Part shown: positions 541 through 47,671 of the stretch, piece by piece
How the letters are laid out: each line of letters opens with the position of its first letter
How positions within the stretch are numbered: position 1 is the first letter of the stretch
Assembly (NCBI GenBank): GCA_021234155.1
Contig: JAJEKV010000040.1
Coordinates: 12,109,072-12,173,071, forward strand
DNA length: 64,000 nt
Source: Isoetes taiwanensis
Lineage: Eukaryota; Streptophyta; Lycopodiopsida; Isoetales; Isoetaceae
Direction: 5' to 3'
Notes under the pieces: model-generated
The model's database searches: none
Told to the model about the DNA's origin: nothing
Seen by the model: only the letters and a program-made list of their open reading frames with translations
Position numbers and translations under genes: made by a program

Positions 541-561
541 AACGGAGTATCACAGACCATG

Positions 562-1320: not shown

Positions 1321-1384
1321 ATACTCTTCTTCCATAGCTCGCTGCCATGTTGGATCCTTTGCTGCAGCAGCAAAGCTAGTTGGA

Positions 1385-1891
1385 TCAGAAGACTCTTGCA
1401 AAATTTGAGCCATCAAAGCCCATATTGCATTGTGCATCTGTTTGGGCAGCTAGACGAGCAGATCTCCTTGGAGTTGCTTCCTGTGGAGGAGGTTCTAATG
1501 TTGAATTACAACGGGAAGTTGATCGACAGCTGGACGACGACCAAGAGAAATCACTCAAGTTGGAAGACAATTTAAAAGGAGTATCTTGAGGAGGTAATGC
1601 ATGAGCACTACTCGCAGCTCCACCATCACAAAAGGAGTTCAAAGGGAGTTCTTCCATGAGTGGCTGCCATGGATCAGGGGCTTCATCAAATTCCCTTGTA
1701 GATACACCAGGGTCAGCTGCAACATTGGAAGAGTATTGACCAAGACCTTGCGCAATGAGATCACCAACCAAACAATCATCAGCAAAATCACTTAATATTG
1801 GCTGGTCCCACTTAATCTCATCAAATTTGGTCTGCTCATGAAAGTGAACAGAGCGGCTAACAATTGTTTTCTTTGCAATCGGATCATACAA
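1385..1891 (-). pseudogene. copia integrase-RT linker
   Basis: This stretch begins with the conserved copia segment after the integrase core (KLYDPIAKKTIVSRSVHF-like). It continues with low-complexity linker rich in Ser, Pro and Asp. It ends where the frame shifts into a DPTSFAAAAKDPTWQRAME-like block at about 1320-1400, the usual lead-in to RT. Two frameshifts bound it, one near 1900 (a small deletion at the GYALD motif) and one near 1400. Confidence 0.75.
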
Positions 1892-1920
1892 CTTGTAGGC
1901 CTTGTGATCAAGCGCATAGC

Positions 1921-3084
1921 CTAGATTGCTTTGGTTGCTCTCTCATGCAACTTGCCTTGCTTCTTGAAGGCTTCAAGAGTATTAGATACAAAGGCAAGAC
2001 AACCAAATGTACGCAAATGGGAAACATCTGGTTTCTTACCACGAAGGGCTTCATACGGCGTCCGATGCCCAAGCAGCTTAGTTGGCGACCTGTTTAGAAT
2101 GTAGGCTGCTGTCACCGCTGCTTCAGCCCAAAACCACTTCGGAAGATGTGCATGAAACAACATGGATCTGACCAAATCCGCCAACGTTCGATTGCGCCTT
2201 TCTGCAACACCATTTTGAGCATGTGCACCTGGAACTGCAAGCTGCCGAGAGATTCCATGTTCAGCCAAAAAATCAGCAAACTGATTTGACATATATTCAC
2301 CACCGTGATCAGTCCTCAATGCTTTAACATGATGACCAAACTGCTTCTCAACCTGAGCTTTCCATTTTCTGAAAACATCAAAAGTTTCAGATTTGTACTT
2401 CAAAGGAAAAATCCACATGTATCTCGTACTATCGTCAATCAAAGTCATGAAGTATTTGGATCCGCCAATAGAAGACACACTCATATGGCAGAGATCGGAA
2501 TGTACAAGTTCCAAAGGCTCTGCAGCAATATTTTCAGCAATATGTGGGAAAGGAACTTGAGTTTTCTTACCTTTATGACAAGCTTCACATTGGAGATTAA
2601 CAGAATTGAGAGAGGGGAGATTCTCAACCATCTTCTTGCTGCTGAGCATATGCAAATGCTGCACATTGATGTGGCCGAACCGAGCATGCCACAACTCCTC
2701 CAAGGTCTGATCTATGACACATAAATCAAGCTCATGTTGAACCTCATTTGCCTCACCACAAAAGTAATATAAGCCTTGCCTAAGTTTGCCTTTAGCAAGA
2801 ACTTTGCTGCTGCTGTCATGAAGAGGATTTGAGTTGTAGATCATAGCTTCTCCACCGCCAAAGAGAAGAAAATTGCCACCTTTGTCCATTTGGGACACGG
2901 ACATCAGATTTGCACTTAAGCCTGGAATGTACTTGACATCTTTTAAGACTTTAACACTCGCATCATCGAAATGAAATTGCACATTCCCTTTACCAACAAT
3001 TGGATGTGAAGAACCATTACCGAAATGGACCTGCCCTTCATTTTGCACATCCAAGTCTTTGAAAATAATTCTTTTTTTTGTCAT
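1921..3084 (-). pseudogene. copia integrase
   Basis: A 387-residue open frame covers the GAG-pre-integrase zinc finger (H-x3-H ... C-x2-C, residues about 130-175) and the integrase core. The core shows the HSDL aspartate, the RTDHGGEY aspartate and the AQNGVAERRNRTL segment with the catalytic Glu. It ends at the conserved FGCLAFV region, where a small deletion breaks the frame. The upstream part resembles the stretch after the protease (HFGNGSSHPI, YIPGLSANLMS). Integrase would insert the cDNA into nuclear DNA. This is the best preserved piece of the copy. Confidence 0.93.
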
Positions 3085-3579
3085 GTGTTTGGTGCTTTTG
3101 AATCCAAGATCGATCTTGGGGATCAGTAAGTAATCAGCATGACTTGAAACATATACTCAATGGGACAATTATCATCACTAGACCCATTTGTATCGGCCAA
3201 ATTTGACTGCTCAACTCCTTTTCCTTTATCAGCAGATTTCTTTGCATCCCCTTTGGCCTCTTTAGCTTTTCTTTTATTGCAGTCCCTAGCATAATGGCCA
3301 TGCTTGTGACAGTAAAAGCACTCCACATTAGGCTTGCACCTGCCTTTACCCTTATCAGAATCAGAATCACGTGGTTTCTTCTCTTTGAAATCGTGCTTTC
3401 TAGGAGTAGAAGCATGTCCAACGAATGCAGCTTCAGATCCTCCTCCATGCTCTCGCTTAAGAACAACTTCTTCTTGCAAGAGCCGTTGTTGTGCAACAGA
3501 GTAATCAAAATGCTCCATATATCTGATGTTGGTACTTACAGTTTTGTATGCTGCTGGTAGAGCTAACATGGAAAATTTT
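3085..3579 (-). pseudogene. copia gag C-terminus with zinc knuckle, and broken protease
   Basis: The gag C-terminal half has one CCHC knuckle (C-FY-C-HKHG-H-YARD-C, 3279-3320) in a Lys-rich context. The protease signature lies at 3085-3110 and is damaged twice. The expected D-S-G-A reads D-S-K-A, and a missing base after it shifts the frame before the conserved H-M-T. The right end of this block joins the 655-bp insertion at 3580-4234, beyond which gag resumes. Confidence 0.85.
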
Positions 3580-4234
3580 AAGGGACTTATAATTTTGTAT
3601 AAGTATAATGAATTGGCCATTCCTTGTAGAATATGCCCCCAAAAGTGTAGCCTGAACTGGCCATTTTCCTATTTTTTTCTAATGTGGATGCAACCCAATT
3701 GGCGATTTTTGAAGCCGCTACCCTATATAAATGTGTTTAAGTTACATGTTGTATGAATTTCATACCCCATGTATTTCAATAATGCACAGATTGCTGGTAG
3801 GGAGAATTGGAAATCGGATGCCAGAATCTTCGTAAAGAGGATTGAAAAGTACCTCGACATTCTATTTTCCAAAAGAGCAGAATTATTCTTAGTTGGTAGA
3901 TATATTTAAGAATAAAAATTTCTAATAATGTTGGCCCCCCTGAGTGACGATTTTATGAGGGGGCCTCTTAATGAATTAAGATTTGGCAAACTTAAGGCAT
4001 AAATGGCCATTCCATAAGCATATCTAGTTCTCACTTGGTACTGAATTGGCCCCAAAGTCGACACCACTCTAATTAGCAAATATCTAATTGGCCATTCTAA
4101 TGTCGTAATGCGCAATAAAGTGCCACGAAATGGCGAATCTGCAGGTAGTCCATAGGTAAGGCATCCTACTCAAGCCGGTCGTCGCATTTTGCCTGAACCT
4201 GTAATTTGTGGCCAAATGGCCCGCCGGGGCCACT
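3580..4234. mobile_element. Insertion of unknown class inside copia gag
   Basis: About 655 bp without a gag match separates the two gag halves. Both junctions carry AAAATTTT (3572-3579 and 4235-4242), which could be an 8-bp target duplication. The inside is AT-rich with several copies of a TGGCCAT-type word and no convincing ORF. No clear terminal inverted repeat is visible, so the class is open. The AT palindrome at the junctions may be chance, and joining across it does not by itself restore one gag frame. Confidence 0.45.
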
Positions 4235-4702
4235 AAAATTTTCGCTGAGAGCTAACAAGATGTCTTGAACTAGCTCTTCCTCCTTGTATGTACCTCCGGC
4301 TGCAATATAAGCCAACCTCCATGCTTCCATCTGCTTCAAAAAGTCTGCCATAGACTTAAAATCTGCTAGCTTGGCCATTCGAATCTTTTCCTTGATCAAT
4401 CCTTGTTGAGGCATGCCTTTAGTAGAGAATTGTCTCTCAAGAAAGGCCCAAAGCTCCTTGAACTCTGTCAAACTTTCAATCTGAGGCTGAATGGTAGGAT
4501 CTACCAGCAGGTTGATAGTTGAAACTGCTAGAGAGTTCATTTCTGCTGCTTTGACATTCTTTGTGCTGATGAAGTCTGCCTGAAAGACATCACCTAGCTT
4601 GTTGAAGGTGAGATAGTGCTTCATAAACACCCTCCAAGAATGATAGTTTTCATTTGTTAGTTTGGCATCCCTTGAAAATTTGAAGGGATCCATCACCTTC
4701 AA
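4235..4702 (-). pseudogene. copia gag N-terminal region
   Basis: The gag start reads M-K-V-M-D-P-F-K-F, followed by the N-Y-H-S-W-R-V-F-M segment and the LWAFLERQFS region, which is the usual copia gag (UBN2-like) layout. The reading frame is open down to the insertion junction near 4235. Gag would form the virus-like particle shell. The stretch 4703-5106 between this start and the primer-binding site is the untranslated leader and holds no ORF of note. Confidence 0.85.
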
Positions 4703-5106
4703 AGACGATGATCAAAAGAAATCTTTCTCTTGATCTCAAGAAAGAAATCTTGCCCAAGATTGTCTAAGGAACAATCCTCCAATCCAGGAATTGGCTCAGA
4801 CGTCTCAAGAATTTGGCTCAGAATTGAGCAAATACAGCTTCTTGTAGTTCTAATTGAATGTGCCGATGCTGGAAAAAACGTCCACGGTATTGGTTCTCCG
4901 TCACCGAAGGCTTACACGAAAAAAAAAAACCAACGTGAACCAAAAAATGACGTTTTGTCACAAAATTAGCCTTGTCGGCAATCAAATTTGGCCAAATTGC
5001 CAAACGGACAAGACTTCACCCGACCAAATCCGTCACTTCCAAAACCAACCCGGAACACCTGCAATTCAATTCAACGAACGATCCTCCGCTCGATTTGCCT
5101 AGGGAG

Positions 5107-18599: not shown

Positions 18600-18841
18600 T
18601 AGAATGTATCAGGTGTATATATGATCATGGGCTTGCAAAAAATAGAAATCAGATTTGTGTGCTATTTTTTTCCATCGCAGCTTTATATCCCCCTGGAGAA
18701 CCTATTGTCTTGGGGAACCTTTTGCATGCAGAATTGAGGCTTACTTTGAATCATGCAGATTTGCCCCTGGATTCTCTACCCACTTCACAATGGAACAATC
18801 TTCACAGACAATTCATGAGGCTTTAACACAGAAGCGCTTGG
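18600..18841 (+). repeat. Host segment, left copy of a tandem duplication split by the Ty3 element
   Basis: GCAGCTTTATAT...TTCATG at 18678-18818 matches 32045-32183 on the far side of the element at roughly 85% by eye. Before insertion the two copies were tandem. The plus frame starting AALYPPGEPIVLGN is open and protein-like, with PLDSLPTSQW near the end. The right copy stops at a TAG where the left has TGG. No family recognised. Confidence 0.7.
18837..18841. repeat. Target-site duplication CTTGG (left)
   Basis: CTTGG directly precedes the LTR TGTGACG and recurs at 31973-31977 directly after the other LTR. Confidence 0.93.
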
Positions 18842-20440
18842 TGTGACGCTCCCAGAATATATACGACCCTCGGACGTATACATACGGGGACTTTCCCCTC
18901 CCATGGCGATCCTCTCACCATGAGCAGGGCCCTCCGTCTGTTTCGGGCCACCTATGAACTGAGGCCCGAAAGAAGGACACGAAGGGGTCATTCGGCCCAC
19001 GCCTTCAATGGGACTCCTACGTCGCGGAAGCATGAATACAAGGGTTAGCACACAGCACGAATATACATAAATAACCACCACGAAGGGTGGCGCATCCATC
19101 CAAAATACCAACGGCATAGAATATGCATCTAATCCTAAGAAAACGCCCAAAACCCAGGCTTCTACCCCGGCTCAGACTCCAGTGAGGATCGACTGACGGC
19201 TGGGCCTCAAGAGATCAGCAGACCGAGTCTTGGCATGGCGTTGGCTGGCATAGAACATCGGCTAGGGTTGTCCACTCCATCCGCCCCTCCTGTGCACACT
19301 TTGCAGATGGGTCAATTCATGCTATGGCTTTGCTATAGCCTTCCGGAGACGCAGGTTCGAGGAATCACCCTTTGAGCCTACTCCAGGTTCATGACGCCTG
19401 GTCCGATGAGGCAGGTCGGGGAAGCGTCCCCTTCCAGAATCACAGTGGTTCCATGGGCGAGCTAGAGAATACGTGCCGCATCAGCTGACCCGTGATCCGT
19501 GCGACTTACCGCCCCTAAATCTACTCAAAGTGCAAGGTGCTCCATACGGATCACACCTTCCCACCCAGGAGTGTCGGACCCATACCCGCCCCTACGTGGA
19601 TGGCCATCGGGCCTAGCCCATCAGAGGAGTCGGGAGCCATGTATGCTCATGCAAGACCCCACCCCTCATGTCACCTTGTGTTCCTTGTCCGGTGCTAAGC
19701 CGCACCATAGCATCTAGGACCCGGTGGGCTCTTGTGCACAGCCGCAATTAATGGGACTTTACAGGCTATCTAGGAGCATACTACTATACACGGTTCAGAG
19801 GCCTCTACCCCCGTAATCCCCCGTTTCAGAATCGATTTAATCACGTAACTAACAATCAATCCTTTGAGAGAAGAACCCGAATTGAATGTAAAGAGAACCC
19901 ACTTGTACAACCAAGGGTTAGTTCCTATGATTAATTACTGAGAGAACAGAGAAACGCAGACACAACCAAGCGTTATCTAGAACTCACACAACCACCTACC
20001 CGAATTCTGGCTTGACTCGTTTCCATGGGGCCTCCATCTCCGGGAGTTGTTAATCATTTGTTACTTCACAGGGGACGATCGCTATGGTGGTTCTGCAAGG
20101 GTGTGATGGCTCGCTCTCCCGGCCTTCTTTGGTCGATCTTCAGGAGTCAATCCCAGGGATAGGGGTCAAGCTGGCATCCAAACTTGGCAATCCCCATGCT
20201 CCCCCAATCGATTGGGGCAGGTGGCGCCTCCCCAAATGGTATTTCCTAGGTTATAGGTTATTATTATTAATGTGTTAAATTAGCATAGCTAATTTAATCC
20301 ATTGTAAGGTAACCCCCTAGGTTACAATTAAGTTCCCATACCCCCATGGTAGCGTACCTTTAGGGGGGTGACATGCTTGTATTTGTACGTGGCCCGTATA
20401 AATACGTGACGTAGACCGTACAAATACGTGGAACGTCACA
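18842..20440 (-). repeat. Ty3 element 3' LTR
   Basis: This 1,599-bp LTR has TGTGACG...CGTCACA inverted ends and matches 30364-31972. The first ~450 bp and the last ~350 bp look identical between copies, whereas 19290-20100 has many small differences and indels. No ORF of note is inside. Confidence 0.95.
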
Positions 20441-20453
20441 TTCTCCCCTCCTT
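20441..20453 (-). other. Polypurine tract
   Basis: On the minus strand AAGGAGGGGAGAA abuts the 3' LTR start TGTGACG. This is the usual primer site for plus-strand DNA synthesis. Confidence 0.9.
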
Positions 20454-21060
20454 AAAAATTAATGCTGTCCTCAGCATTGGGGTCAGCTAACCGAATATAT
20501 TTAATTAGAAAATGGAGTTAAGAATATAACATTAATACGTCGAAAGTATTTCGGATAGTAATATATTGAAGTTACAATAGCAAAGTAGAAGCACGAAGGT
20601 GCCTTACACAACTTATCATCAAGAGAGTTTAGGACCAGAGTCCGATTCAAAACATTTAGACAACATAAATCACACATGTAGACAACAGGACTACGGGAAA
20701 AGTTGGGTCATCAGCAACCCTCTATACAAGGCAGGCGACGACCTGTTCACTGGCCTGCACATATCCATATACCCGTAGATTAATAATATGATGAAGGTGT
20801 GGTTAAAGGGTCCACCCCCCTACAATTAAAATAAATAAAAAAAATATCTAGAAGAAATGTATCATGCGGACGGTACGCAATTCATTATGGCATAAGGAAC
20901 GATTCAGTTCCCCGTATTGCCGGAATGACTGCGGTCTATTTACTATACGCTTCTCAAGCAATGCGCGGTCATGTCAACATCAACACTACACCACGTCCTA
21001 GAGAACACAAAGGTGATCTCATCATCGGTTATTTTTATAATATACGATGCATCTACCCCT
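20454..21060. other. Non-coding 3' region of the Ty3 element
   Basis: About 600 bp between the pol stop and the polypurine tract. AT-rich, no ORF or motif recognised. Confidence 0.6.
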
Positions 21061-23921
21061 CTAAACATGATTATCGGCAATCAAGTCTTCGAGCTTACCG
21101 CTGGGAGCGGGGTTGATAGCATCGTTGATGGTGCGGCCTTGAGATTCCCGCATGAAGTCCGGATAGTGCTTCTCAAGGTCTATCTTCATTACCCAGGTAG
21201 CATCTTCAACTGGTAAGTGTTTCCACTTGACTAAGTATTGCAACATTTGAGTCCTTCTGGTCTGTTTGTAAGCTCGATCAAGAAGAGCTTCGGGCACTAT
21301 TTCCAGCTGCTCTTCAGTCATCTCTAGGAGAGTTGGGGTATCCAAAACCTCCTCTGGATCTGGGGTGTGTTGCTTCAGAAGACTCACGTGAAAGACCTTG
21401 TGGATCTTCAAGCGGGGTGGCAAGTCCAAGCGATATGCTTGTTCCCCTACGCGTTCAGTAATCCTGAACGGCCCAGCCCATCTGGGTGCCAACTTCTTAC
21501 AGTTACCAATTTTAAGCTTGGCTTGTTTTACTTTGATCTTAAGCCAAACTGATTCGCCCACCTGGAAGATCCGTGGGGTTCGGTGCTTATCCGCTAGACT
21601 CTTTTGACGATTGCGTGCGGCCAATAAGTAACCCCGAACTTCTTCCACCAAGGCCTGCATTTCTAAAAGGAGCTGTTGAGAGACCTCCACTTTAGAAACA
21701 GGGTTATACCACGTGTCTGGAGTAAGACATTGATAGCCATAATTTATCATGAAGGGAGACATCTTTGAAGACTCCTGCTTTGTACTGTTATAGGCGAACT
21801 CTACCAGGTAAATATAATCCGCCCATTGTGACTGTTTACTCCATACATAACTTCGTAGCATATCTTCGATAATACGGTTGACACGTTCCGTTTGACCATC
21901 TGTCTGAGGATGGTAAGCTGTACTCATGGCAAGCTTGGTCTGGATGGTGGCGAAGAAATCCTTCCAGAATGCACTGACAAACTTAGGATCTCTATCTGAT
22001 ACAATTACTCTTGGCATCCCGTGCAACCTGAAAATTTCTTTTGCAAAGAGCAAGGCGGTGTCGAAGGCGGTGTCCGTGGTGCGACATGGCAGGAAGTGAG
22101 CCATCTTTGACAATTTGTCGACCACGACCATTAATGCATCATATCCACGGAGGGTGCGTGGAAGCCCCACAATGAAATCCATAGTTATGACTTCCCACTT
22201 GGCGTTGGGCACATCCAAAGGTTGCAACTCCCCAGGAACTCTTAATTGCTCCGCCTTGGTTTGCTGACAAACCTGACACTGTTTGATGTACCTAGCAATA
22301 TCCTTCTTCATCGAAAGCCAAAAATAGCTGGAGCGGATCTTAAAGTAAGTTTTCATAAAACCCGCATGTCCTGCTATAGGGCTGTTGTGGGTGTCATGGA
22401 GAATCAACTTTCGCACCCCTGAAGTTGCTGGAACGCACAACTTATCTTTGTAATATAATAAGTTGCCCTCCTTCTTATATGAACGGAATGCTTCTCGTTC
22501 TCTGTCGGTACGGGCTTCCTTACCCAAACTTTCCCAAATATTACAGAATTCGGGATCTGTGGCCAAGGTCTGCTCTATCTGCTTCCCAAACTCGCTGGTG
22601 AGTGTGGAAATGGCATTACAATGGGTGCGGGTTATAAAGGGATGACGTGACAAAGCATCCGCAACCACATTGTGCTTCCCTGGCTTGTATACAATCTCGA
22701 AGTCATACTCCTCGAGGAATTCCATCCATCTGCGCTGATGGAGATTTAGATTTGGCTGGGTGGATAAATAGCGGAGACTCTGATGATCCGTATCCAGCTG
22801 AAATCTTCTACCAAGAAGGTAGTGTCTCCAAATACGGAGAGCACGAACAACTGCCAGCAACTCCTGGTCATGGGTAGGATATCGTTGCTCTGCGTCATTC
22901 ATCTTCTTTGAATCGTAGGCAACCACTCTCCCCTCCTGCATTAGAACTCCACCGGTAGCTATCTTACTAGCATCGGTGGCTACCGATTTATCCTTTTCAG
23001 GATCAGGCAATGTAAGGACCGGTGCAGATGTTAAGGCATCCTTGAGCTTTTGGAAGCCGACTTGGACTTTTGTCTTCCAATGTTCCATCCAATCCTTTAC
23101 CTTCTCATGCTTTGTGAGATTAGTAAGAGGTGCGGCAATTGCTGCAAAATCCTTAACAAATTTTCGATAATATCCTGCGAGTCCCAAGAAACTTCGGACC
23201 TCTGAGACATTAGCTGGAATGGGCCAATCCTTTACTGCCTCTATCTTGGCTGGATCTGTAGCAATTCCTTCTGCTGAAATAATATGCCCCAAATAGTCGA
23301 CCCTCGTAGTGGCAAACTTGCATTTAGAAAACTTGGCAAAGAGCTGATGGCGTCTTAGCTTCTGCAAAGCCAATCGAAGATGTTGTTGATGTTGCTGCAA
23401 GGTTTTACTATAGATGAGAATGTCATCAAAAAAAATGACAACAAAGTCATCCAAGTATTGGCGGAAGATGTCATTCATCAACCGCATAAACGTTGCAGGG
23501 GCATTGGTCAATCCAAAAGGCATGACATTGAACTCATAATGGCGTGATCTCAGTGCGAAAAGCGACTTATGAATGTCCTCCTCCTTTATCCTTATCGATG
23601 GTACCCGGAGCGCTAAATCAATCTTTGAGAAATATTTTGCTCCTTGTAACCGGTCCATAAGATCATCGCCCTAGGCAAAGCATAGCGATTCTTGATGGTA
23701 TGCTTATTGAGTTGCCTATAATCAATACACATCCTTAAGGAGCCATCTTTCTTCTTGACAAAAGAATAGGAGCCAAATGGTGAAACACTAGGCCGAATAA
23801 ACCCCAAATTCAAGAACTCTTGTAGGCTGTTTCTTAAGCTCGCTAACTCAGGAGGACTCATTGATGCGGGGCTTTCTTTGGTAGGCTTAGTACCCGGTTC
23901 AAGAGTTATCTCACATTCCAC
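21061..23921 (-). pseudogene. Ty3/gypsy pol: RT, RNase H, integrase, chromodomain
   Basis: The left block (23613-23921) has the RT start: [31 protein letters not shown]. After a frameshift near 23656 an 865-codon frame continues. It has KIDL with the first catalytic Asp, [22 protein letters not shown] (RT catalytic pair, residues 76-84) and [11 protein letters not shown]. RNase H has [11 protein letters not shown] and the [15 protein letters not shown] end. The integrase HHCC finger has CQVCQQTK. The D-D-E core has [18 protein letters not shown] and [15 protein letters not shown] chromodomain (residues about 785-838: [16 protein letters not shown]) ends the protein. Chromodomains steer integration to marked chromatin. 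Six residues after KIDL are changed by a pair of compensating indels. Confidence 0.96.
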
Positions 23922-24480
23922 CCTCCGAAAGGAGGAAGCTTGTGGATCTCATCTCGAAAAAAGATCGCTAAATTCTCGAAGAAGGGTAGCAATGTCCCGA
24001 TGGTAAAGCGTCAATTACTTGTCTTGCTTTGGAGTCCGGCTCAATGGAAGCAAGTCTAATGAGGCAAAGAAGTTCATTTACAGTATAGCTTTTCCTAGCT
24101 GTTTTATTGACATTGATCGTGATAGCGGAGTGTAATGAATCACCTTTTATTGTCACACGTGCTCCATTAGCGGCGTTGAAGGTGACCTCCGTTTCTCACG
24201 GTCTATGTGGGCCCTAGCAGGACGCTAAAAACTCCATTCCCACAATAAGATCATATTTGCCAATGTCCATTAACTTTCGGCACCTAAAACCGGTGCACCC
24301 GGCGGCTGCATTTTAAGGTTAATACTGCCATGAGTGTGCTCCTCGATCTTACCGCCGGGCTAATGTGATCGGGCTTAGGTCGGGATCTCAATGTTTCCAA
24401 ATCTGCAGTATTTGGGCCATTCTAGGAGAAGCAAAATTATGCGCATTACTACCCGTGTCCATCAAAATTATGAAGGGCTT
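23922..24480 (-). pseudogene. Ty3/gypsy aspartic protease, broken
   Basis: FIILMDTGSNAHNF places the catalytic D-T-G-S at 24448-24459. Downstream pieces (YDLIVGMEFLA near 24230, TIKGDSLHSAITI near 24140) fit a retropepsin fold and its linker to RT. Several stops and shifts lie between 23930 and 24430. The active site is intact, the frame is not. Confidence 0.82.
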
Positions 24481-25887
24481 ATCGCCTACTTGGCCTATTG
24501 TAGAAATAATGTATAGGCTGACTTTCGCCGCTTACTTTTGTTTCTATAGCGGCAAGAATATGAGACGCACCATGAATGTACTGGGAGCCTCGTCCTCCGC
24601 AGCAAGATTGGACTCCAATTCTTCCCAATCCAGTCGGCCATGGCGGTTGAGCGTCTGGCGACGCATCGGACAATTCTCGCATGAAGTGTCGGGCCTCATG
24701 CACTGTAGTAGCATGCCTTATCCCGGCGTGAGCTGCTCTCTCGCCTCTTTAGGAATGGACCGTAAGAGGCCCCTAATTTCCTTACCCGCATTGTTCGCTT
24801 TTATCCCCGTGCTAAAAGCAACTTTCTTCTCGGCGTCCATAGGAATTGTCTTTGAGAGGGCCCCGGACTTGGCGAGCGGGGTTTGTAAGGTGTGGACTGA
24901 CCGTGGTGCGCGTAAGTAAGGAGCAGGTCGCAGATATCTGGTTCTTTGGCGTGTCTTCCTCAAGGCTTAATGCCTTAGCTTCGCCTACAAGCATTGACTT
25001 TGGGTCTATGGCCTTGACCATGCGTTTAATGGATGGGGCCAACCCTTCAATGTAGCCCTCACGCCCTTTTCTCATTCATTCCGGTACATACAACCTCAAA
25101 CGCATGAATTGGCCGATTAGGCCAGGCACCGACATGCCCTTCTGTTCCAACCCCAGAGAAGGTCTCGAATCTGTTGGCATTTGTGCGCACGAGGCACATA
25201 ATGCGATTTAAAAGCCTTAGCAAACTTCCTGAACTTGCATCTGCTCCTATCCAGGTGTTTAGCTCTGGCGTAACCCTTCCACCAAATACGGGCAGCTCCG
25301 GTAAGGTTGGTGGTGGCGACTTTCCCTGTATCTTTCTCTGTCATTCCATAGGACTTCCCGAATTCCTTCATTTCATCCAACCAAGATTCCGCATTCAAGC
25401 CTCCTCTAGATTTTCCATCAAATTGAGCTAACTTCCGGTTCTTCCATATACTAGTGATGGCTGTATCAACGGTTTTTCGGTATTCCTTATCCTTACGCCT
25501 TGAGTGGTCACTGTCTGACAGCGAGGACCCCGAAGAACCCGAAGCGGTTGAATGTGAGGACGCGGCACTATCCTTAGAGGAACTTCGATGACGCTTGGCA
25601 TGAGTCCTCCTTTGTACCGGCACAGGGCTAGCTGTGGGAGGAGACGGCTGTTGTGCGGGTGGACTCAATGGTCGCGGAGGCAATTCCGGTCCGTCCTCCT
25701 GAGTATGTGGCAGTGGATTGGTATGCAAGACATAGGCCTGCAATTCGCCGAGTTGCCTTTTCATTATCATCAATTCCTGTTCAGGGGTGAGCCTGCTGGC
25801 GTTGGAGGGTGTTTGCCAAGCGGCGTTACGTACACCGTCTATAGGGAGTATCCATGAATGTATAAGCAGATTTACATTAATGTACAA
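24481..25887 (-). pseudogene. Ty3/gypsy gag, frameshifted
   Basis: The N-terminal frame (25117-25887) has a Pro/Ser-rich stretch, an RSSSKDSAASS region and the retrotransposon gag core (AQFDGKSRGGLNAESWLDEM, AARIWWKGY, FAKAFKSHYVPR). A shift near 25140 separates it from 24812-25075 (GYIEGLAPSIKRMVKAIDP). A degenerate CCHC knuckle (C-Y-Y ... H-F-M-R-E) lies near 24680-24720. A run of reverse-strand ORFs in this area is overlap only. The first ATG of this frame is near the ORF's left context and the exact start is uncertain. Confidence 0.85.
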
Positions 25888-26084
25888 TCCTTTTAAAATA
25901 TTTGAGACAAAAGAATATACAAACAGAAAATAATATTTTCATTTTCATTTTTTTGGTCAAGTACAAAACAAGTTTATTGGTACATGAGTTGAGACGGAAG
26001 TAGGTATGATACAGTGAAAATCTTTAAAGGTCTACTTGCACACAGTGTAAGCACAGCAAAGAAACATAGCGGAAAAGACCAAGC
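25888..26084. other. Spacer between ORF C and gag
   Basis: 197 bp, AT-rich, with long T/A runs near 25935-25970. No ORF. It could hold the 3' end of ORF C mRNA and a gag leader. Confidence 0.5.
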
Positions 26085-26573
26085 CTAGGGGTTGGCGAAG
26101 GGGTACAGGATCGCGTAGCGGGTACTCTCCCGTACGGCTCGGACGAGTTTATAGCGTGCCCAGGCTTGGACAATGATTGCTTGGTACTCCCATGTTGGGC
26201 TGATAATTAGAAGGTTAAAGAGCCTTCGCATCGCATAAAAGAGTTGCCAAAGGTGATCGTTGGCGTCCTCAAAGGCTTCGTGCCTGGTCATATTCCAGTA
26301 GTCCCAGGTACGACACAAGGTCATCCTCAGATCCTCGAAAGCTCGATCTCTGAGGATGTTAACTATCTCCAGCCCTTTGTCAGGGTCATAGAGTTCCCCT
26401 GGTGGCGGTGGTTCAGTTTCATAGCCTTCCTCCCACTCTGGATATTCACCATATCTCTGGCCATAATCCTGGTCTGGCGGCCCGGGATCGTCCCTCCTAA
26501 CCATGTCGGTGATTCTTTCCTCATACTCCCAAATGGTTTCCTCTGCAACATAGTTGGAATGAATAGAGAACAT
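26085..26573 (-). CDS. ORF C: acidic protein with probable H2B-like C-terminus, 162 aa
   Basis: The ORF starts at the first in-frame ATG (26573) and is open to TAG-side stop at 26085. The N-terminal ~65 residues are acidic and Tyr/Pro-rich (DYGQRYGEYPEWEEGY, EPPPPGELYDP). From about residue 79 to the end, helices align by eye with histone H2B. Counting from the first residue of the first helix, Ala-22, Asn-27, Phe-34 and Leu-44 coincide without gaps. A Pro-Thr pair then precedes the last helices, and AVRESTRYAILY resembles the H2B C-terminal signature AVSEGTKAVTKY, with 2-3 residues fewer in the loop before it. Function is inferred. A chance helical match is possible. No lesion is seen, and an H4-like reading of the same segment fits less well. 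Confidence 0.5.
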   Translation of the reverse strand: MFSIHSNYVAEETIWEYEERITDMVRRDDPGPPDQDYGQRYGEYPEWEEGYETEPPPPGELYDPDKGLEIVNILRDRAFEDLRMTLCRTWDYWNMTRHEAFEDANDHLWQLFYAMRRLFNLLIISPTWEYQAIIVQAWARYKLVRAVRESTRYAILYPFANP

Positions 26574-26778
26574 TGGAGTTGCATTATATTCCAAAGTTTA
26601 ATGCTCTTGAAGAGGATGTCATAACAAAACACAATTCAATAATACTCCTCAAGAGAACTTTGTATTAAATAGGTAAATAAAGTACACCATTGTTCAATAT
26701 CATCCAACGGTTGCTAAACGAAAATCTCATAAACCCACGTATAATTATATATATACAAAAATTTCATAGCACAATTGT
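26574..26778 (-). promoter_or_regulatory. Spacer between ORF B and ORF C, possible promoter
   Basis: 205 bp, AT-rich. On the minus strand a TATATATATAATTATA stretch lies near 26740-26756, soon after the ORF B stop and about 170 bp before the ORF C ATG. A TATA-driven ORF C transcript is possible but not shown. Confidence 0.3.
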
Positions 26779-28182
26779 CTAGGAACTAGGCCCTGCCTCT
26801 TTATCCTTAGCCTTAGGAGGTGGTGGAGGCGGTCGGTGTCGCAGCAGAGCTACTCCAGGGTCCACGGTGGCCGCCGCAACAGATGCAACCTCTGGTGGAT
26901 AAGCAACGGCCAATGGGGCTGCCGTGAGGAGCTTCATACCCATCCAGGGCGCAATATCCTGGCCCAAGGCCGTAAGGGCAAGATCCCGTCGTACGAGTAC
27001 ATACGTAAACGTACGATAGGAAAGCTTCTTGTGGCCGGCGAGTGTAGAAAGTGCACGGAGGGCCCACCATGAAGCTTCAGCCTCTGGCCCTAAGTCCCGG
27101 GCTATGAAGAGGACTTGGCCGTATTTGAAGGCCGACAAAAAGAAACGGGTAAGGTGGTTACCCAGCACCTTCCCTTGCGGAGTCTCGGATGCTGCCACCT
27201 CCTTATCCAAGTCCATGGGGACTTCTTCCTCCTTAAGCTCCTGTTGCTCCTCCTTCTTGTGTGCAGGGTTATGATACAAATCTTCGCCCTCATCATCTGA
27301 GTCGGAGGGAATCTCAACCATATTAATGTTTGGGACGTGAGGTCCCATAGCCGTGAAGGCATCTGGTGCAGGTTGCGAAGCTGGTTCCTGCATCACAAAG
27401 TCACGAAGACGTAATAGAGTCTCCGCCGGCTCTAGGGTCTCCTGACGGAACTGCAGCAGCTGGTGCACCTCTGGAGGAAGCTCAGTAGAAGTGAAGTCGA
27501 TGAAATCATCCATACAATACTCCGCAAGCTCATAAAGTACATGGTCTTTGCGCTTGCGTCTAAATCCGGCCACTACATGATACGTCCAGATAATATCATC
27601 CAAGAGAAGGTATTCCTGCCCCTGGTGATAAATAACTGGAAGGCCGTCTAACCCTGACAAGCCTATAGATTGGTCACGGCGCGGTGGTAGCTCCTCTGCT
27701 AGCTCTTTCCAACGGCCGAAGTCACCCATCCCTATATGCTCATCATCCCCCTCCTCGGAGGATTCCGGCAGTTTGCTCTTCTCCACTGGCAAGGTCTCAT
27801 CCTCAACGTATTGGTCCATGAGGATAGCCAGGGCGAAAGTAGCTTCCAAATACTGCTGCCCCTGATGTTGGACTACCGGTAGGTGCTTACCCCATCGGAG
27901 TTTCCCCTTCAAGACGTCATAGGCATGTGTGTCCCCGCCTAGCATCTGCCGAACTATCTCCCGCTCCAAATACAAGTGGGGAGGATCCCCTAGAGGAATA
28001 CACAGAGGAAGCATTTCCTCCATGTAAAAGTCAAGGAATCCGGCATAGTCCGGATGCCGCTGCATATTGGCAAGGAGATCTATGCGTTGGCATAGCAAAG
28101 GCTGCAGCAGGTCGAAGGGAACCTGTGGATCCCATTTCTCTCCATCAAGGTACCAGGCAGCAAGGTCGATGGCGGCAGCCAT
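26779..28182 (-). CDS. ORF B: novel protein with probable H2A-like C-terminus, 467 aa
   Basis: An open, ATG-started frame. The N-terminal half contains two copies of a P-V-[VI]-x-H-Q-G-Q motif (residues 102-109 and 182-189). An acidic patch SDSDDEGEDLY at 293-303 follows VEI and resembles a SUMO-interacting or histone-binding acidic motif. Residues about 338-425 align by eye with histone H2A: RFFLSAFKY against RFLKKGKY, then LAG at 381-383 at nearly the H2A spacing (38 versus 36 residues). From Thr-393 to Gly-415 there is an ungapped 23-residue match in hydrophobic pattern with Thr, Arg and Gly kept. A Pro run and Lys-rich tail close it. The fold call is inference; the ORF itself is clear. 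It lies 201 bp after ORF A. Confidence 0.55.
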   Translation of the reverse strand: MAAAIDLAAWYLDGEKWDPQVPFDLLQPLLCQRIDLLANMQRHPDYAGFLDFYMEEMLPLCIPLGDPPHLYLEREIVRQMLGGDTHAYDVLKGKLRWGKHLPVVQHQGQQYLEATFALAILMDQYVEDETLPVEKSKLPESSEEGDDEHIGMGDFGRWKELAEELPPRRDQSIGLSGLDGLPVIYHQGQEYLLLDDIIWTYHVVAGFRRKRKDHVLYELAEYCMDDFIDFTSTELPPEVHQLLQFRQETLEPAETLLRLRDFVMQEPASQPAPDAFTAMGPHVPNINMVEIPSDSDDEGEDLYHNPAHKKEEQQELKEEEVPMDLDKEVAASETPQGKVLGNHLTRFFLSAFKYGQVLFIARDLGPEAEASWWALRALSTLAGHKKLSYRTFTYVLVRRDLALTALGQDIAPWMGMKLLTAAPLAVAYPPEVASVAAATVDPGVALLRHRPPPPPPKAKDKEAGPSS

Positions 28183-28383
28183 GGCGCTAGAAGGGAGGAG
28201 ATGAGGAAAAGAAGCGTTTAAAATGACCCTACAGTCCCCTTTTAAACCCTCTTAATAAAGCTGACGTCAGCATTTTATTTTAAATTCAACATGGAAAAAC
28301 ATTAAACTTTTAATTCAAAATAAAAGTTTCTTTATTAATTATCACAAAAAAAATATGTACAAATGCGGATCCCCGCAAGTAGG
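28183..28383 (-). promoter_or_regulatory. Intergenic cassette between ORF A and ORF B
   Basis: Going down the minus strand from the ORF A stop: AATAAA-type signals (near 28330 and 28280), then a perfect TGACGTCA palindrome (28262-28269). This contains ACGTCA, the hexamer known from plant histone gene promoters. Next is a TTTAAAAG TATA-like box (28239-28246), then a pyrimidine-rich leader to the ORF B ATG at 28182. A near octamer TGCGGATC (7 of 8 of the plant histone CGCGGATC box) is at 28365-28372. The layout suggests that ORF A ends and ORF B starts its own transcript here. Confidence 0.45.
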
Positions 28384-29613
28384 CTAAGGTTGCTCCCCCC
28401 GTATCCTACGGGCGAGGGCCAAATCCTTAGGCATTATGGTGATCCTCTTTGCGTGGATAGCGCAAAGGTTGGCGTCACCAAAAAGTGCTACCAAGTAGGC
28501 TTCAGCAGCCTCTTGGAGCGCCAAAATTGCAAAGGTCTGGAAACGGAGATCGGTCTTAAATTGCTGCGCGATCTCACGTACCAGCCTCTGAAAAGGCAGC
28601 TTCCTGATCAGAAGGTCCGTGGACTTCTGAAATTTGCGGATCTCCCGCAATGCCACGGTACCGGGTCGGAACCGATGAGGCTTCCGCTGCGGCCGAGGCC
28701 CCGACGATGTTGGCACCGTCTTAGCCCCAGTAACCGGCCGGGAGTTATCCACTCTCTGCTGCCTCCGGTCGGAGCTGGTCTTCTTCCCGAAAGCCCCGAC
28801 AGTCTTTAATTTCTCCTTGTATTGACTGCCGGCCTTATGGGCGACTCCCTTCCTTCTGTGCTTCACGGTCTGGTGCGTCGGTTTTGGGTCCAGCCCGCTC
28901 CCCGATGCACCTCCCTCTTGCTGGTCCCGCTGGTCCTGTCGGTCCCGCTCATCTTGCTCCAACTTCTCCCGTTCCTCCCGGGCTCTCCTCAAATCTTCTT
29001 GGATCTGAGCAAAAATTTGGGCTGCGGCACGGCGATTAAGCTCAGCGTGGTACCGTTGTGGCCGCAGACCCATATCTATCTGAATAGTTGTCAGATAGTC
29101 TATGCTGATGTCGGGGATTTCTCCCCAGACAAAAGTATCGGAACCCTCATGCCAGCGGTATGGGGGAACCTCGATGGCCCTGCCATCAATGACGGCAAAG
29201 CCGTCCCCGAGGTACCGGTACTCCCTACCCCGAGCTGCTGTGTCAGACCGCTCAATCTCCCGGTGGTCGTCCTCCCTGGCCAAACCCCTGATACGGTCGG
29301 CCTCTGCCCTGACATCTTCCTCCTCCGTATGGCCTTCCTGCTGAGGAGGATAAAACTTGATGAGCATCATTACCATGTCTGGTTGCTCCACAATGGTATA
29401 TGGGAGCTGGCGTAGGTTCAGCCGGATAAGAAACGGCTCTGAGAAATGATAGATAGGATAAGGAATCCTATCATTGTTCTCAAACCTGTTAACCAGCTCA
29501 TCCAACAAGATGTCGACGAGGGCTGGGTCAGTGGCCATGTGCTTGGCAATCATGGCGTAGATCTCCACGATGCTCAAGGTGGACGGATCCGGAGCGCTCT
29601 TGGTGATTGCCAT
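28384..29613 (-). CDS. ORF A: novel protein fused to a histone H3 core, 409 aa
   Basis: The first in-frame ATG is at 29613. Residues 311-409 are a histone H3 core from the KPHR of residue 37 to the C-terminus: 99 residues, no indel. About 83 of 99 match plant H3.1 as I remember it. [37 protein letters not shown] and NLCAIHAKR are intact, as are the lysines at H3 positions 56, 79, 115 and 122, His-113 and Asp-123. The canonical ARTKQTARKS tail is absent. In its place are about 310 residues: a helical N-terminal part, a P-x-x-W-H-E-G motif (151-157) shared with ORF B, a charged coiled coil (about 195-232), and a basic linker ([12 protein letters not shown]) that could act as nuclear signal. H3 forms the nucleosome core with H4. 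Here it probably joins or mimics nucleosomes. No lesion is seen. Confidence 0.95.
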
Positions 29614-30350
29614 AGGGAATAGTGAGGCGCTGGCGGCGACGAAGGTGGCAAAAGGGGCGCTAAGAGGCACAAGGCACACAGGCGCGGGAGCAGGGTCTAG
29701 TCCGGCGACGATGGCGGAGGGCGGCTCAGGTGGTTGGAGGCGCGGAAGCAAAAACAAATGACAAAATTTAATTGGTTAAAAGGCCCCTTAACTTTTAAAA
29801 ATTTCAAATTTTTTTCCTTTTATTAACGTCGAAATATTATTATTATAAATTATACGGCGGAAATACGCGCCCCATACGGTCGGGCGCCGATGGCGTTATA
29901 CGAGTTTCTGCCTCGACTGGGCGTCGCCGAAAAGCAAGCGGCGCCCGAGTTGACTCGGCGGGCCCGCGTTGACTCGGGTCTGACAGGTCGGGCGCCGAGG
30001 GCATTTCGGGCGCGTCTACTTTGACTGCAAAGCTTCCAAATGCAAGCGGCGCCCGAGTTCGTTTTTGGGCCTGCCCTTGACCATGTTTCGCCTAGAGTCG
30101 ACTGTTCTAGGGTAATTCGGGTACGCCCGATCCAATGGAACCATCATCTTCGTCATTTGAGCTACCCACTGGCACCTATTAGGCCTCCAATCTTGGGCCC
30201 TCCACTTTAAAGCTATAATCTCTTAACTTAACCTAACACCAAACCAAACAACAAAGAGAACTAACGACACATTGACTTAGCCTCCTCCTAACTACCGTGC
30301 TACGAGTTAGTGTTTGGCCAGTGCTATGATTTCGAGCAACCGAAATCACG
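29614..30350 (-). promoter_or_regulatory. Element 5' leader with diverged ~108-bp tandem repeat
   Basis: The leader between primer site and ORF A is GC-rich at 29870-30080. GGTCGGGCGCCGA occurs at 29878-29890 and 29986-29998, and GCAAGCGGCGCCCGAGTT at 29934-29951 and 30042-30059. Both pairs are spaced 108 bp, marking a diverged tandem duplication. Near ORF A, TATAATTTATAA (about 29840-29855) and an ACCAAT are seen on the minus strand. Confidence 0.6.
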
Positions 30351-30362
30351 GCTCTGATACCA
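30351..30362 (-). other. Primer-binding site (initiator Met tRNA)
   Basis: Minus strand TGGTATCAGAGC, one base inside the 5' LTR end. All 12 bases match the initiator-Met primer site. Confidence 0.95.
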
Positions 30363-30363
30363 C

Positions 30364-31972
30364 TGTGACGCTCCCAGAATATATACGACCCTCGGACGTA
30401 TACATACGGGGACTTTCCCCTCCCATGGCGATCCTCTCACCATGAGCAGGGCCCTCCGTCTGTTTCGGGCCACCTATGAACTGAGGCCCGAAAGAAGGAC
30501 ACGAAGGGGTCATTCGGCCCACGCCTTCAATGGGACTCCTACGTCGCGGAAGCATGAATACAAGGGTTAGCACACAGCACGAATATACATAAATAACCAC
30601 CACGAAGGGTGGCGCATCCATCCAAAATACCAACGGCATAGAATATGCATCTAATCCTAAGAAAACGCCCAAAACCCAGGCTTCTACCCCGGCTCAGACT
30701 CCAGTGAGGATCGACTGACGGCTGGGCCTCAAGAGATCAGCAGACCGAGTCTTGGCATGGCGTTGGCTGGCATAGAACATCGGCTAGGGTTGTCCACTCC
30801 ATCCGCCCCTCCCATTGCACACTTTGTGGATGGGTCAATTCATGCTATGGCTTTGCTATAGCCTGAGACGCAGTTCGAGGAATCACCCTTTGAGCCTACT
30901 CCGGGTTCATGACGCCTGGTCCGATGAGGCAGCGGAGGGGAAGCGCCCCTTCGGAATCACGGTGGTTCCATGGGCGAAGCTAGAGAATACGTGCGCATCA
31001 GCCGACCCGTATCCGTGCAGGCTTACCGCCCTAAATCTACTCAAAGTGCAAGGTGCTCCATCTGGGGGATCACACCTTCCCACCCGGGGAGTGTCGGACC
31101 CATACCCGCCCCCTCGTGGTAGGCTATCAGGCCTAGCCCACTGTAGGAGTCTCAGGAGCCATGTATGCTCATGCAAGACCCCACCCCTCATGTCACCACT
31201 GTGTTCCTTGTCTGGTGCTAAGCCAGACCATAGCATCTAGGACCCGGTGGGCTCTTGTGCACAGGCCGCAATTAATGGGACTTTACAGGGCGCTATCTAG
31301 GAGCATACTACTATACACGGTTCAGAGGCCTCTACCCCGTAATCCCCCCGTTTCAGAATCAGATTTAATCACAGAACTAACAATCAATCCTTTCAGAGAA
31401 GAACCCGAATTGAATGTAAAGAGAACCCACTTGTACAACCAAGGGTTAGTTCCTATGATTAATTACAGAGAGAACAGAGAAACAGACACAACCAAGCGTT
31501 ATCTAGAACTCACACAACCACCTACCTGAATTCTGGCTTGACTCGTTTCCATGGGGCGCCTCCATCTCCTGGGAGTTGCGAATTCAGCTGTTACTTCACA
31601 GGGACGACTGCTATGGTGGTTCTCTGCAAGGGTGTGATGGCGCTCAGCTCCTGGCCTTCTTTGGTCGATCTTCAGGAGTCAATCCCAGGGATAGGGGTCA
31701 AGCTGGCATCCAAACTTGGCAATCCCCATGCTCCCCCAATCGATTGGGGCAGGTGGCGCCTCCCCAAATGGTATTTCCTAGGTTATAGGTTATTATTATT
31801 AATGTGTTAAATTAGCATAGCTAATTTAATCCATTGTAAGGTAACCCCCTAGGTTACAATTAAGTTCCCATACCCCCATGGTAGCGTACCTTTAGGGGGG
31901 TGACATGCTTGTATTTGTACGTGGCCCGTATAAATACGTGACGTAGACCGTACAAATACGTGGAACGTCACA
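30364..31972 (-). repeat. Ty3 element 5' LTR
   Basis: This 1,609-bp direct repeat of 18842-20440 has the same TG...CA ends, followed by the second CTTGG target copy. It is the 5' LTR because the primer-binding site abuts its inner (left) end on the minus strand. U3 lies at the right. Confidence 0.95.
31903..31972 (-). promoter_or_regulatory. U3 cluster of ACGT-core motifs
   Basis: The first 70 bp of U3 hold at least five ACGT cores, among them TGACGTTCCACGTA and TACGTCACGTA. The latter includes ACGTCA. A short word CACGTATTTRTACGG occurs twice. ACGT cores are bZIP binding sites. The same cluster is in the other LTR at 20371-20440. Confidence 0.45.
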
Positions 31973-31977
31973 CTTGG
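31973..31977. repeat. Target-site duplication CTTGG (right)
   Basis: Identical to 18837-18841. Five base pairs is the usual Ty3/gypsy target duplication. Confidence 0.93.
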
Positions 31978-32190
31978 TGTGCAAAATTTAGATATCATGG
32001 GCAGTGGCTTTAATCACAGCGGTGTTATGCAACCGACATCGGCAGCTTTATATCTGCATGGAGAACCTATTGTCTTGGAAAATCCTTTGCATCCAGAATT
32101 GAGGCTTGCTTTGGATCATGCAGATTTGCCCCTAAATTTTCCACCCACTTCACAATAGGACTATTCTTACAGAAAATTCATGCAAGCAAT
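31978..32190 (+). repeat. Host segment, right copy of the split tandem duplication
   Basis: GCAGCTTTATATCTGCATGG... at 32045-32183 matches 18678-18818. The plus frame has the same PIVL, ELRL and HADLPL words and ends at a TAG. A pseudo-exon or untranslated duplication is possible. Confidence 0.65.
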
Positions 32191-45836: not shown

Positions 45837-45950
45837 ATGGCATCTTTGCCTCGTATCTTTGCAAGACATTATTTTCCAGTAATAGGTATACGGAAATTCT
45901 CACTGATATCAGCGCTGTTTTCTAGCAACCACATAACTTTAGGGTTTTAA
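45837..45950 (+). pseudogene. Probable organellar transit peptide of the PPR gene, out of frame
   Basis: ATG at 45837 starts MASLPRIFARHYFPVIGIRK, followed by Ser-rich FSLISALFSS and a stop at 45948-45950. It is Arg-rich, acid-free and amphipathic-looking, as in mitochondrial targeting peptides. It is one frame away from the PPR frame, which is open from 45924, so an indel may have cut the link. Confidence 0.4.
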
Positions 45951-46066
45951 TCAACAGGAATTTTGAAGATCCAAACAAACAAAGCTGGTTAGAAGAGGCT
46001 CTCAGATGTGCTGAAGCAAAGCATCAGAAACAAGGAATTTCATTATCTAAAGCACTTGCACATCGT

Positions 46067-47671
46067 ATGGTTTCAGAGTGTTCTAAACGCCGAGACTTGA
46101 AGCTTGGAAGACGAATCCATTCATTGATGGCTATTAATAAACTAGATTGTGTTGCATTTTTGGCAAATCACCTTATTCGTTTATTTGCCTCATGTGGAAG
46201 CTTGGCTGAAGCAGAGCAGGTATTTATCAAGGTTACAAATCCAGATCAATATACTTGGAATGCAATTATTGATGCCTATGTTAAGCACGGTGAAGCAGAA
46301 TTGGCATTAAAATTGTATGATAAAATGCTAAGAAAGGGTGGAAAGCCAGACAAATTTACATTTCCTAGCATTTTGAAAGCGTGTGGTAGCATAGGTGCAA
46401 TAGAGAGAGGCATGGAAATTCATGGCCAGGTTGTTAAGTTAAGTCTTCAATTTGATCCTTTTGTTGGAAGCAGTTTAGTGGACATGTATGCGAAATGTGG
46501 GAATTTGGAAGCTGCTCGTGCTATCTTTGACAAACTCTCCACTCGAGATGTCGTAACATGGGGTTCAATGATTTCAGGTTATGCACAGAATGATAAAGGG
46601 CACCTTGCTTTACAATGTTATGAGCAAATGCAGCAGGCAGGCATAAAGCCAGACAAGTTTACATTCCCAAGCTTGTTGAGAGCATGTGGCAGCTTGGGAG
46701 CTATAGAGCAGGGTACCTTTATTCATGAACAAATTGTAAAAGAGGGCCTCCGGTCTGATGTCGTTGTTGAAGTTGCCATTGTTGATATGTATGCCAAATG
46801 TGGCAACTTGGACAAGGCACGCAATGTGTTCGAGAACTTAAAGCATCGGGACGTAGTCGCATGGGGAGCGATGATTGGAGGATATACCGATAATGGTCAA
46901 GGCCAACTTGCACTAGAATTTTATGAGAGCATGCAGCAAGAAGGCATAAAACCTGATATGATAATATTTTCAAGTGCTTTGAAAGCATGTAGCAGTATAG
47001 GAGCCATAGAGCAGGGCAAGCGCATTCACCAGCAGCTTGTTGAGAGTGGGGTGCAGTCGGATATTGTGCTTGGGAGTATCCTTGTTGATATGTATGCAAA
47101 ATGTGGGAATTTGGAAGAGGCACGAAAGATGTTTTTAAAATTGGCAAAGCATGATCTAGCAGCCTGGGGCGCAATTATTAACGGATATGCACAGGCTGGT
47201 GAGGTGGGTTTGGCTTTTCAATGTTTTGAAGACATGCAAGATCGTGATATCAAAGTAAATGATATAGCATTTACGAGTATTCTTTCGGCATGCACTCATA
47301 CTGGCTTAGTGGATGAGGCTCTTAGGTGTTTTTATACGATGAAGCAGGTTCATGGGTTACATCATGATATACATCATGTTACGTGTATGGTGGATCTCCT
47401 AGGACAGGCTGGACAGCTTCAGGAGGCTGAACATTTGCTTAAAGCTGTGAATGTCCCTGGTATTCGTCCATGGATTGCTCTCCTTAATGCCTGCAGAACA
47501 CATTGCAATGTAGAGCTAGGAAGACGCAGCTTTAATGTAATTGTTCAATTAGAACCTGTCTATGTTCAAGCATATGTGCTCATGTCAAATATTTATGCTA
47601 ATGCCCACATGAATGATGATGCTCATAGAGTGGACCTGATGAGAAAACTTGCTTGTGCACGTCAAGACTAA
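46067..47671 (+). CDS. PPR protein, PLS class with E-type end, intronless
   Basis: A 534-codon frame is filled with PPR motifs. Conserved units recur: MYAKCGNL four times, R-D-V-V-[TA]-W-G-x-M-I, GIKPDKFTFPS and A-C-x-S-[IL]-G-A-I-E. The end (ALLNACRTHCNVELGRR ... YVLMSNIYANA) is the E1 region. PLS-class proteins bind organellar RNA one base per motif and many guide C-to-U editing. The DYW deaminase is absent. After the stop at 47671 the same frame shows GKKHPSDRESW, a remnant of the E2-to-DYW link, so the C-terminus looks lost by deletion plus nonsense. Upstream the frame stays open to a TAG at 45921-45923. An ATG at 45837 in another frame encodes a likely transit peptide. The gene may be expressed from the internal ATG or be a pseudogene. 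Confidence 0.9.
   Translation: MVSECSKRRDLKLGRRIHSLMAINKLDCVAFLANHLIRLFASCGSLAEAEQVFIKVTNPDQYTWNAIIDAYVKHGEAELALKLYDKMLRKGGKPDKFTFPSILKACGSIGAIERGMEIHGQVVKLSLQFDPFVGSSLVDMYAKCGNLEAARAIFDKLSTRDVVTWGSMISGYAQNDKGHLALQCYEQMQQAGIKPDKFTFPSLLRACGSLGAIEQGTFIHEQIVKEGLRSDVVVEVAIVDMYAKCGNLDKARNVFENLKHRDVVAWGAMIGGYTDNGQGQLALEFYESMQQEGIKPDMIIFSSALKACSSIGAIEQGKRIHQQLVESGVQSDIVLGSILVDMYAKCGNLEEARKMFLKLAKHDLAAWGAIINGYAQAGEVGLAFQCFEDMQDRDIKVNDIAFTSILSACTHTGLVDEALRCFYTMKQVHGLHHDIHHVTCMVDLLGQAGQLQEAEHLLKAVNVPGIRPWIALLNACRTHCNVELGRRSFNVIVQLEPVYVQAYVLMSNIYANAHMNDDAHRVDLMRKLACARQD

Follow-up and report, generated by a model that had tools for sequence, protein, structure and literature searches.

What is a histone H3 core doing inside a plant LTR retrotransposon, and does the element make use of it? 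The question is raised by an open reading frame of Isoetes taiwanensis, which the initial annotation had described as a histone H3 gene fused to a novel N-terminal protein and carried by a Ty3/gypsy element. We analyzed the whole 64,000-nucleotide stretch surrounding this frame (the window). Elsewhere, the window holds pieces of NIPA and KIN17 genes, an open PPR frame of 581 codons with an E motif (45926-47668), pieces of a Copia-type element recognized by eye (2-4711, minus strand), and a reverse transcriptase of Penelope-like appearance on visual inspection (59443-61159), with a weak RVT_1 match (0.0054) for 59443-60204 only. Neither Rfam families at gathering score nor tRNAs were found in the 64-kb window.

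A self-comparison of the window delimited a Ty3/gypsy chromovirus of 13,131 bp at 18842-31972 on the minus strand, with an LTR at each terminus. The 3' LTR (18842-20440, minus strand) is 1,599 bp long, runs from TG to CA, and matches the 1,609-bp 5' LTR (30364-31972, minus strand) at 95% by self-BLAST, with identical ends. Directly outside the LTRs lie the two copies of a target-site duplication, CTTGG, at 18837-18841 on the left and 31973-31977 on the right (no strand assigned). The 5' LTR adjoins a primer-binding site, TGGTATCAGAGC (30351-30362, minus strand), which we take to match the primer site for the plant initiator tRNA-Met. The 3' LTR adjoins a polypurine tract, AAGGAGGGGAGAA (20441-20453, minus strand), identified by eye, which is also the end of the spacer that follows pol. 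Read along the minus strand, the order is 5' LTR, TGGTATCAGAGC, ORF1, ORF2, ORF3, gag, pol with a chromodomain, and 3' LTR. The frame in question thus sits, in the orientation of gag, between the primer site and gag of a bounded LTR element, as had been proposed; the interval holds three open reading frames rather than one, and the H3 fusion, ORF1, comes first.

Two LTRs with a short target-site duplication, and a pol in which reverse transcriptase, RNase H, and integrase are followed by a chromodomain, are what a chromovirus should have. Together with TGGTATCAGAGC and gag, they identify the element as a chromovirus with an unusual block of three ORFs. Ogre/Tat-type elements have an extra ORF upstream of gag and lack an integrase chromodomain. 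The element shares the first feature, with three ORFs between primer site and gag, but its chromodomain places it outside this group; one abstract describes Retand as a non-chromovirus lineage. Between the 5' LTR and ORF1, the leader contains G+C-rich repeats with inverted arms (29878-30059, minus strand), a possible RNA structure or packaging signal. In the host flanks just outside the element, 18673-18817 and 32037-32182 form a direct repeat of 86% similarity; these seem to be two diverged copies of one host segment that lie on either side of the insertion point.

The first part of gag (25117-25887, minus strand) was recognized by a Retrotrans_gag match exactly at the cut-off (4.4e-05, 24.1 bits). 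The following stretch, 23671-25116 on the minus strand, covers the end of gag, the protease, and the start of the reverse transcriptase, and is damaged by frame changes; four gag-pol relatives gave fragmented, gapped tblastn matches to it in two frames. From there, pol continues in a single frame (21064-23670, minus strand) that encodes the C-terminal part of the reverse transcriptase, RNase H, integrase, and the chromodomain. In Pfam, this frame matched RVT_1, RT_RNaseH, Integrase_H2C2 (above cut-off), SH3_Tf2-1, and, at residues 792-840, Chromo (PF00385, 8.4e-08), while rve, at 31.8 bits, narrowly missed its cut-off of 32.6. Relatives of pol among the best 120 of 7,970 matches (8,000 scored) showed 41-51% identity, in some cases over part of the query only, and those listed include Closterium, flowering plants, and entries labeled PITA, presumably pine.

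The pattern of differences between the LTRs bears on both the age of the insertion and the quality of the assembly. At least the first 300 and the last 420 alignment columns show no difference within the pair, and all 65 substitutions and 21 gap runs are confined to the middle. True divergence would spread evenly, so we read the LTR middle as local consensus noise or conversion. The identical ends indicate a young insertion, in which the carrier moved recently with ORF1 intact; for the same reason, selection since the insertion cannot be read from the open frame of ORF1. The apparent break in gag has to be taken with care, since the LTR pair suggests local consensus noise, and gag may be in better condition in the plant than the assembly shows. 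The contrast drawn in the initial annotation, of an intact ORF in an element with a broken gag, stands for the 409-codon frame, which has no stop, whereas its other half may reflect assembly noise.

A point against a role of ORF1 kept throughout the family is that one copy only of the H3-bearing element was observed. In IMG/VR, a query with ORF1 returned one locus, 36% identical over residues 310-400 only and not the fusion, and queries with ORF2, pol, and residues 1-290 of ORF1 returned no copies.

One answer to the opening question would be an artefact: an assembly join, or a host or transposon fragment nested at 25.9-29.9 kb, would have placed sequence foreign to the element between its leader and gag. 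The noise in the LTR middles and at the gag/reverse transcriptase junction does indicate that the assembly may be imperfect, and a 16-nt inverted pair (88%) flanks ORF2 alone. Against this, primer site, ORFs, gag, pol, and LTRs are ordered on one strand between matching 5-bp duplications, and ORF1 to ORF3 are all open; we consider an artefact the least probable of the explanations weighed here. The inverted pair itself (26593-26608 and 28295-28310) is A+T rich and probably due to chance. A nested DNA transposon was rejected, as none of the 10 inverted pairs of at least 14 nt in 25000-30450 encloses the three ORFs.

ORF1 (28384-29613, minus strand) encodes 409 amino acids, running from an ATG at 29613 to a stop at 28384 with no internal stops, and comprises an N-terminal part, a long helix, a basic linker, and an H3 core. 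The core spans residues 311-409 (28387-28683, minus strand), which correspond to H3 positions 37-135. A comparison with Pfam Histone, which the initial annotation had suggested as a check, matched PF00125 to residues 290-405 (E 1.3e-40; 138.9 bits, cut-off 26.4). The best phmmer match among PDB sequences was 7ux9_E, "Histone H3.3" (E 5.6e-52), and the alignment is gap free from residue 311 to the end, with a three-residue gap just before 311. We thus confirmed that the core is free of indels, as had been claimed.

With 84 of 99 residues identical, the core is equally close to plant H3.3 and to plant H3.1 (Nymphaea), differing from each at 15 positions. Comparison with the two variants bears out the earlier reading of three diagnostic residues: F41 is H3.1-like, L90 is H3.3-like, and F87 is neither. 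We further compared the core by BLAST with 32 distinct H3 cores, drawn from 246 matches of which 230 were full length and gap free and were used (16 were dropped). K53 occurs in 18 and A96 in 15 of the 32; we take both to be plant residues of H3. Eight of the 15 sites changed from H3.3 (54, 59, 77, 86, 89, 105, 107, and 117) are invariant in all 32, which indicates that the core is freer than host H3; judged from these replacements, it may not assemble normally. CENH3 is distinguished by a longer loop 1 and a divergent core, and was ruled out by the gap-free alignment to H3.3 and H3.1 and the 85% identity.

A first protein search with ORF1 gave 5,602 matches among 8,000 scored candidates. Four that we inspected among the best 120 contain several tandem histone copies, some with other sequence between them, and were rejected as relatives of the N-terminal part. 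Because such matches are tandem-histone proteins, the homologue alignment for ORF1 is spurious outside the H3 core and was left out of folding.

What stands ahead of the core is not a canonical H3 tail. The canonical modifiable tail, with K4, K9, K14, and K27, was not encountered in ORF1; in the alignment to the PDB H3.3, only a faint K27-like stretch precedes the core, and this possible remnant means that the tail may not be wholly gone. In its place are residues 1-183 (29065-29613, minus strand), for which no relative was found, a predicted long helix at residues 184-234 (28912-29064, minus strand; AlphaFold2 without an alignment), and a basic linker at residues 246-310 with a net charge of +14 (28684-28878, minus strand). 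Residues 1-245 had no Pfam match even at E 10. Residues 1-290 were searched against about 5.8 billion proteins, where 2,796 candidates share short words and none reaches E 0.01 or better; this search requires an exact word as its seed and would overlook very remote relatives. Similarity of the N-terminal part to ORF2, ORF3, or gag did not exceed that of shuffled sequences.

The single-sequence model of ORF1 is poor overall (pLDDT 44, pTM 0.25), with values in the 30s to 50 even in the H3 part, and little is predicted in residues 1-290 beyond the helix. Within the helix, mean pLDDT reaches 89 and 92 at residues 211-230 only, falling to 65 at 201-210 and to 32-41 at 181-200. Based on this model, the helix is probably a coiled coil. 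Of the earlier proposal that some 310 residues with a coiled coil and a basic linker replace the H3 tail, the loss of the canonical tail and the linker hold, and the coiled coil amounts to a predicted helix. The broader description is supported: the sequence shows a Ty3/gypsy element with an H3 core joined to a protein for which no relatives were detected.

The two frames that follow are less easily assigned. ORF2 (26779-28182, minus strand) encodes 467 amino acids and matched nothing in Pfam or PHROGs, and no PDB match was better than E 0.87. Its structure model has a pTM of 0.22 and, like that of ORF1, is of too low quality to be searched by fold. It carries a 12-residue motif twice, as LPVVQHQGQQYL and LPVIYHQGQEYL, a score reached by 2 of 500 shuffles. 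ORF3 (26085-26573, minus strand) encodes 162 amino acids from its first ATG and likewise had no Pfam or PHROGs match; its similarity to ORF2 is weak (reached by 9 of 300 shuffles). The spacer ahead of ORF2, 28183-28383, contains two AATAAA, the palindrome TGACGTCA, and TTTAAAAGG, which precedes an ATG whose context is GCGCCATGG; by its sequence, the spacer might hold a promoter of ORF2's own. AATAAA occurs in three of the five spacers examined, but shuffled spacers contain it in 10-23% of cases, so the motif is no proof of separate poly(A) sites for ORF1 to ORF3.

Both long frames behave like coding sequence. In 500 simulated 9.9-kb interiors with the composition of the ORF region, read on one strand, the longest stop-free run was 418 codons (median 167), shorter than the runs that hold ORF1 (463 codons) and ORF2 (490 codons). 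G+C content at the three codon positions is coding-like in ORF1 (0.61/0.42/0.65) and ORF2 (0.68/0.38/0.56), and the N-terminal and H3 parts of ORF1 share the same coding-like pattern. The corresponding values are 0.53/0.36/0.49 for pol and a flat 0.50/0.51/0.50 for the gag piece. For the H3 core taken by itself, the absence of stops says little, as only 0.6 stops would be expected alongside 15 changes.

The kind of replacement in the core is more informative. The 15 replacements from H3.3 have a mean BLOSUM62 score of +0.87, against -0.39 for random single-base changes; 0.125% of 20,000 draws reach +0.87. With Closterium H3 as ancestor, the mean is +0.88 (reached by 0.12% of draws); the test is weaker with H3.1 of Nymphaea, where it is +0.53 (1.5%). 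Measured on these sequences, the replacements are conservative, with P between 0.001 and 0.015 depending on the assumed ancestor. The H3 core may therefore have been under selection, possibly within a host H3 variant before capture, as the test does not distinguish selection in the element from selection in such a variant.

These results bear most directly on the main rival to a functional reading, passive capture, in which a host H3 cDNA and a neighboring coding piece would be carried as unused cargo. Gene capture by transposons is well known, and the excerpted reports of H3 in fungal hAT elements set a precedent (PMC3538342, PMC6710886). The element was found in one copy only, and a young insertion keeps its ORFs open for a while without selection. 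Yet the fusion frame is open over 409 codons, as are the frames of ORF2 and ORF3. The replacements in the H3 core are conservative, and the search with residues 1-290 found nothing resembling them, in the host or elsewhere. On balance, we regard passive cargo as unlikely, with packaging, poisoning, and artefact ranking behind it.

We favor the reading that ORF1 is an accessory gene of the chromovirus, whose product, an H3 with an exchanged tail, pairs with host H4 and enters chromatin for anti-silencing or tethering; we give it a probability of roughly 0.4. The histone fold is almost whole and the canonical tail is gone, so the simplest function would be one in which the H3 fold reaches chromatin and the element's own domain replaces the tail. 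An H3.3-like or H3.1-like plant core would have been captured and joined to the N-terminal protein. Once expressed, the product would pair with host H4 through the intact fold, join H3-H4 chaperone complexes and nucleosomes, and display its N-terminal domain where a modifiable tail should be. Plant transposons are silenced largely through H3 tail marks and DNA methylation. Nucleosomes with the ORF1 product would have no K4, K9, or K14, and thus no H3K9 methylation on that subunit; because silencing works largely via tail marks, such nucleosomes on the element might resist it, and the element's chromatin would escape silencing. Alternatively, replication complexes could gain a chromatin tether beside the integrase chromodomain.

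The fusion could instead serve in particles, with linker and H3 core binding element RNA or cDNA in the manner of a nucleocapsid. The net charges of the linker (+14) and core (+10), the place of ORF1 ahead of gag, and leader repeats that could act as a packaging signal are consistent with this. However, stable DNA wrapping by H3 needs H4, for which the scanned frames of the element gave no match, and a near-complete H3 fold is unnecessary for RNA binding; such a packaging protein is improbable. A further alternative is that the fusion acts as a poison or decoy, binding host H4 or H3-H4 chaperones or capping nucleosome arrays, and so weakens host silencing broadly. The core is similar enough to compete with host H3, and bracovirus H4, as described in the excerpted account, works by entering host nucleosomes (PMC5423620). 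A vertically inherited element would nevertheless gain little by harming its host. In addition, the changes at positions 105 and 125 might weaken chaperone contacts. We consider the poison or decoy role very improbable.

Under the favored accessory-gene reading, a plant LTR lineage would encode its own nucleosome subunit, either to build silencing-resistant chromatin or to tether itself to chromatin, a proposal that we make tentatively and with some doubt. If true, we know of no earlier case in which a retroelement employs a histone as weapon or tool, and an H3 core supplied by the element without its tail would point to a direct countermove against silencing. Even if ORF1 is mere cargo, no other LTR element bearing an H3 fusion came up in our searches, and ORF1 offers nucleosome studies a natural replacement of the H3 tail.

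How does the locus compare with known systems? H3 on transposons (fungal hAT) and added domains in plant Gypsy elements are known already, and an LTR-borne H3 fusion was not encountered in the excerpted sources. Likewise, among the matches listed in a full-text literature search, no title or abstract start described H3, as a gene or in a fusion, on an LTR element, which is not proof of absence, as subscription papers and preprints are mostly outside its coverage. The closest precedent is fungal. According to excerpted reports, captured H3 is found in hAT DNA transposons of several fungi that are plant pathogens; one of these fungi has 26 copies that are very similar, and in another all copies but the original are inactivated (PMC3538342, PMC6710886). 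As in our element, the H3-like gene H3L of Pyrenophora tritici-repentis is transposon borne and is thought, in the excerpted text, to stem from a host transcript; the Pyrenophora form also has a further ORF of unknown function, and its H3 tail bears insertions (PMC3538342). The fungal elements (Pyrenophora; Pseudocercospora and relatives) are DNA transposons with terminal inverted repeats, described in the excerpt as surrounding H3 and accompanied by an 8-bp duplication (PMC6710886), whereas the carrier here is a plant LTR retrotransposon. Membership in the fungal class was rejected, as no inverted pair encloses ORF1 to ORF3 and a 5-bp duplication lies at the LTR ends. The fungal H3 stands as a gene of its own, and the excerpts mention no long fusion at its N terminus, in contrast to the fusion of about 310 residues here.

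Among plant elements, chromoviruses share with ours the LTRs, primer site, gag, and order of reverse transcriptase, RNase H, integrase, and chromodomain; unlike theirs, its primer site and gag are separated by three further ORFs, one of them an H3 fusion. Giant Gypsy elements of Phalaenopsis, as excerpted, carry an AlkB m6A demethylase that is active in vitro (PMC9289625). They too are a plant Ty3/gypsy lineage that gained a conserved domain, in that case an RNA demethylase rather than a histone. The screen of 121 angiosperm genomes in the same study names no histone among the domains discussed in the excerpted main-text section (PMC9289625). Retrotransposons of dinoflagellates and charophytes carry DNA methyltransferases, according to the excerpted report (PMC5890265); there, too, a gene acting at the level of chromatin was gained, an enzyme that marks DNA and not a nucleosome subunit. 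Single H3-like histones of viruses are judged likely to enter host chromatin in the excerpted source, and bracovirus H4 and xenomavirus H3 combine a conserved fold with an altered, extended N-terminal tail and are thought to enter nucleosomes (PMC9145170). These are histones of DNA viruses, and the tail extension of xenomavirus H3, as given there, is 35 residues long, against about 310 in the chromovirus fusion (PMC9145170).
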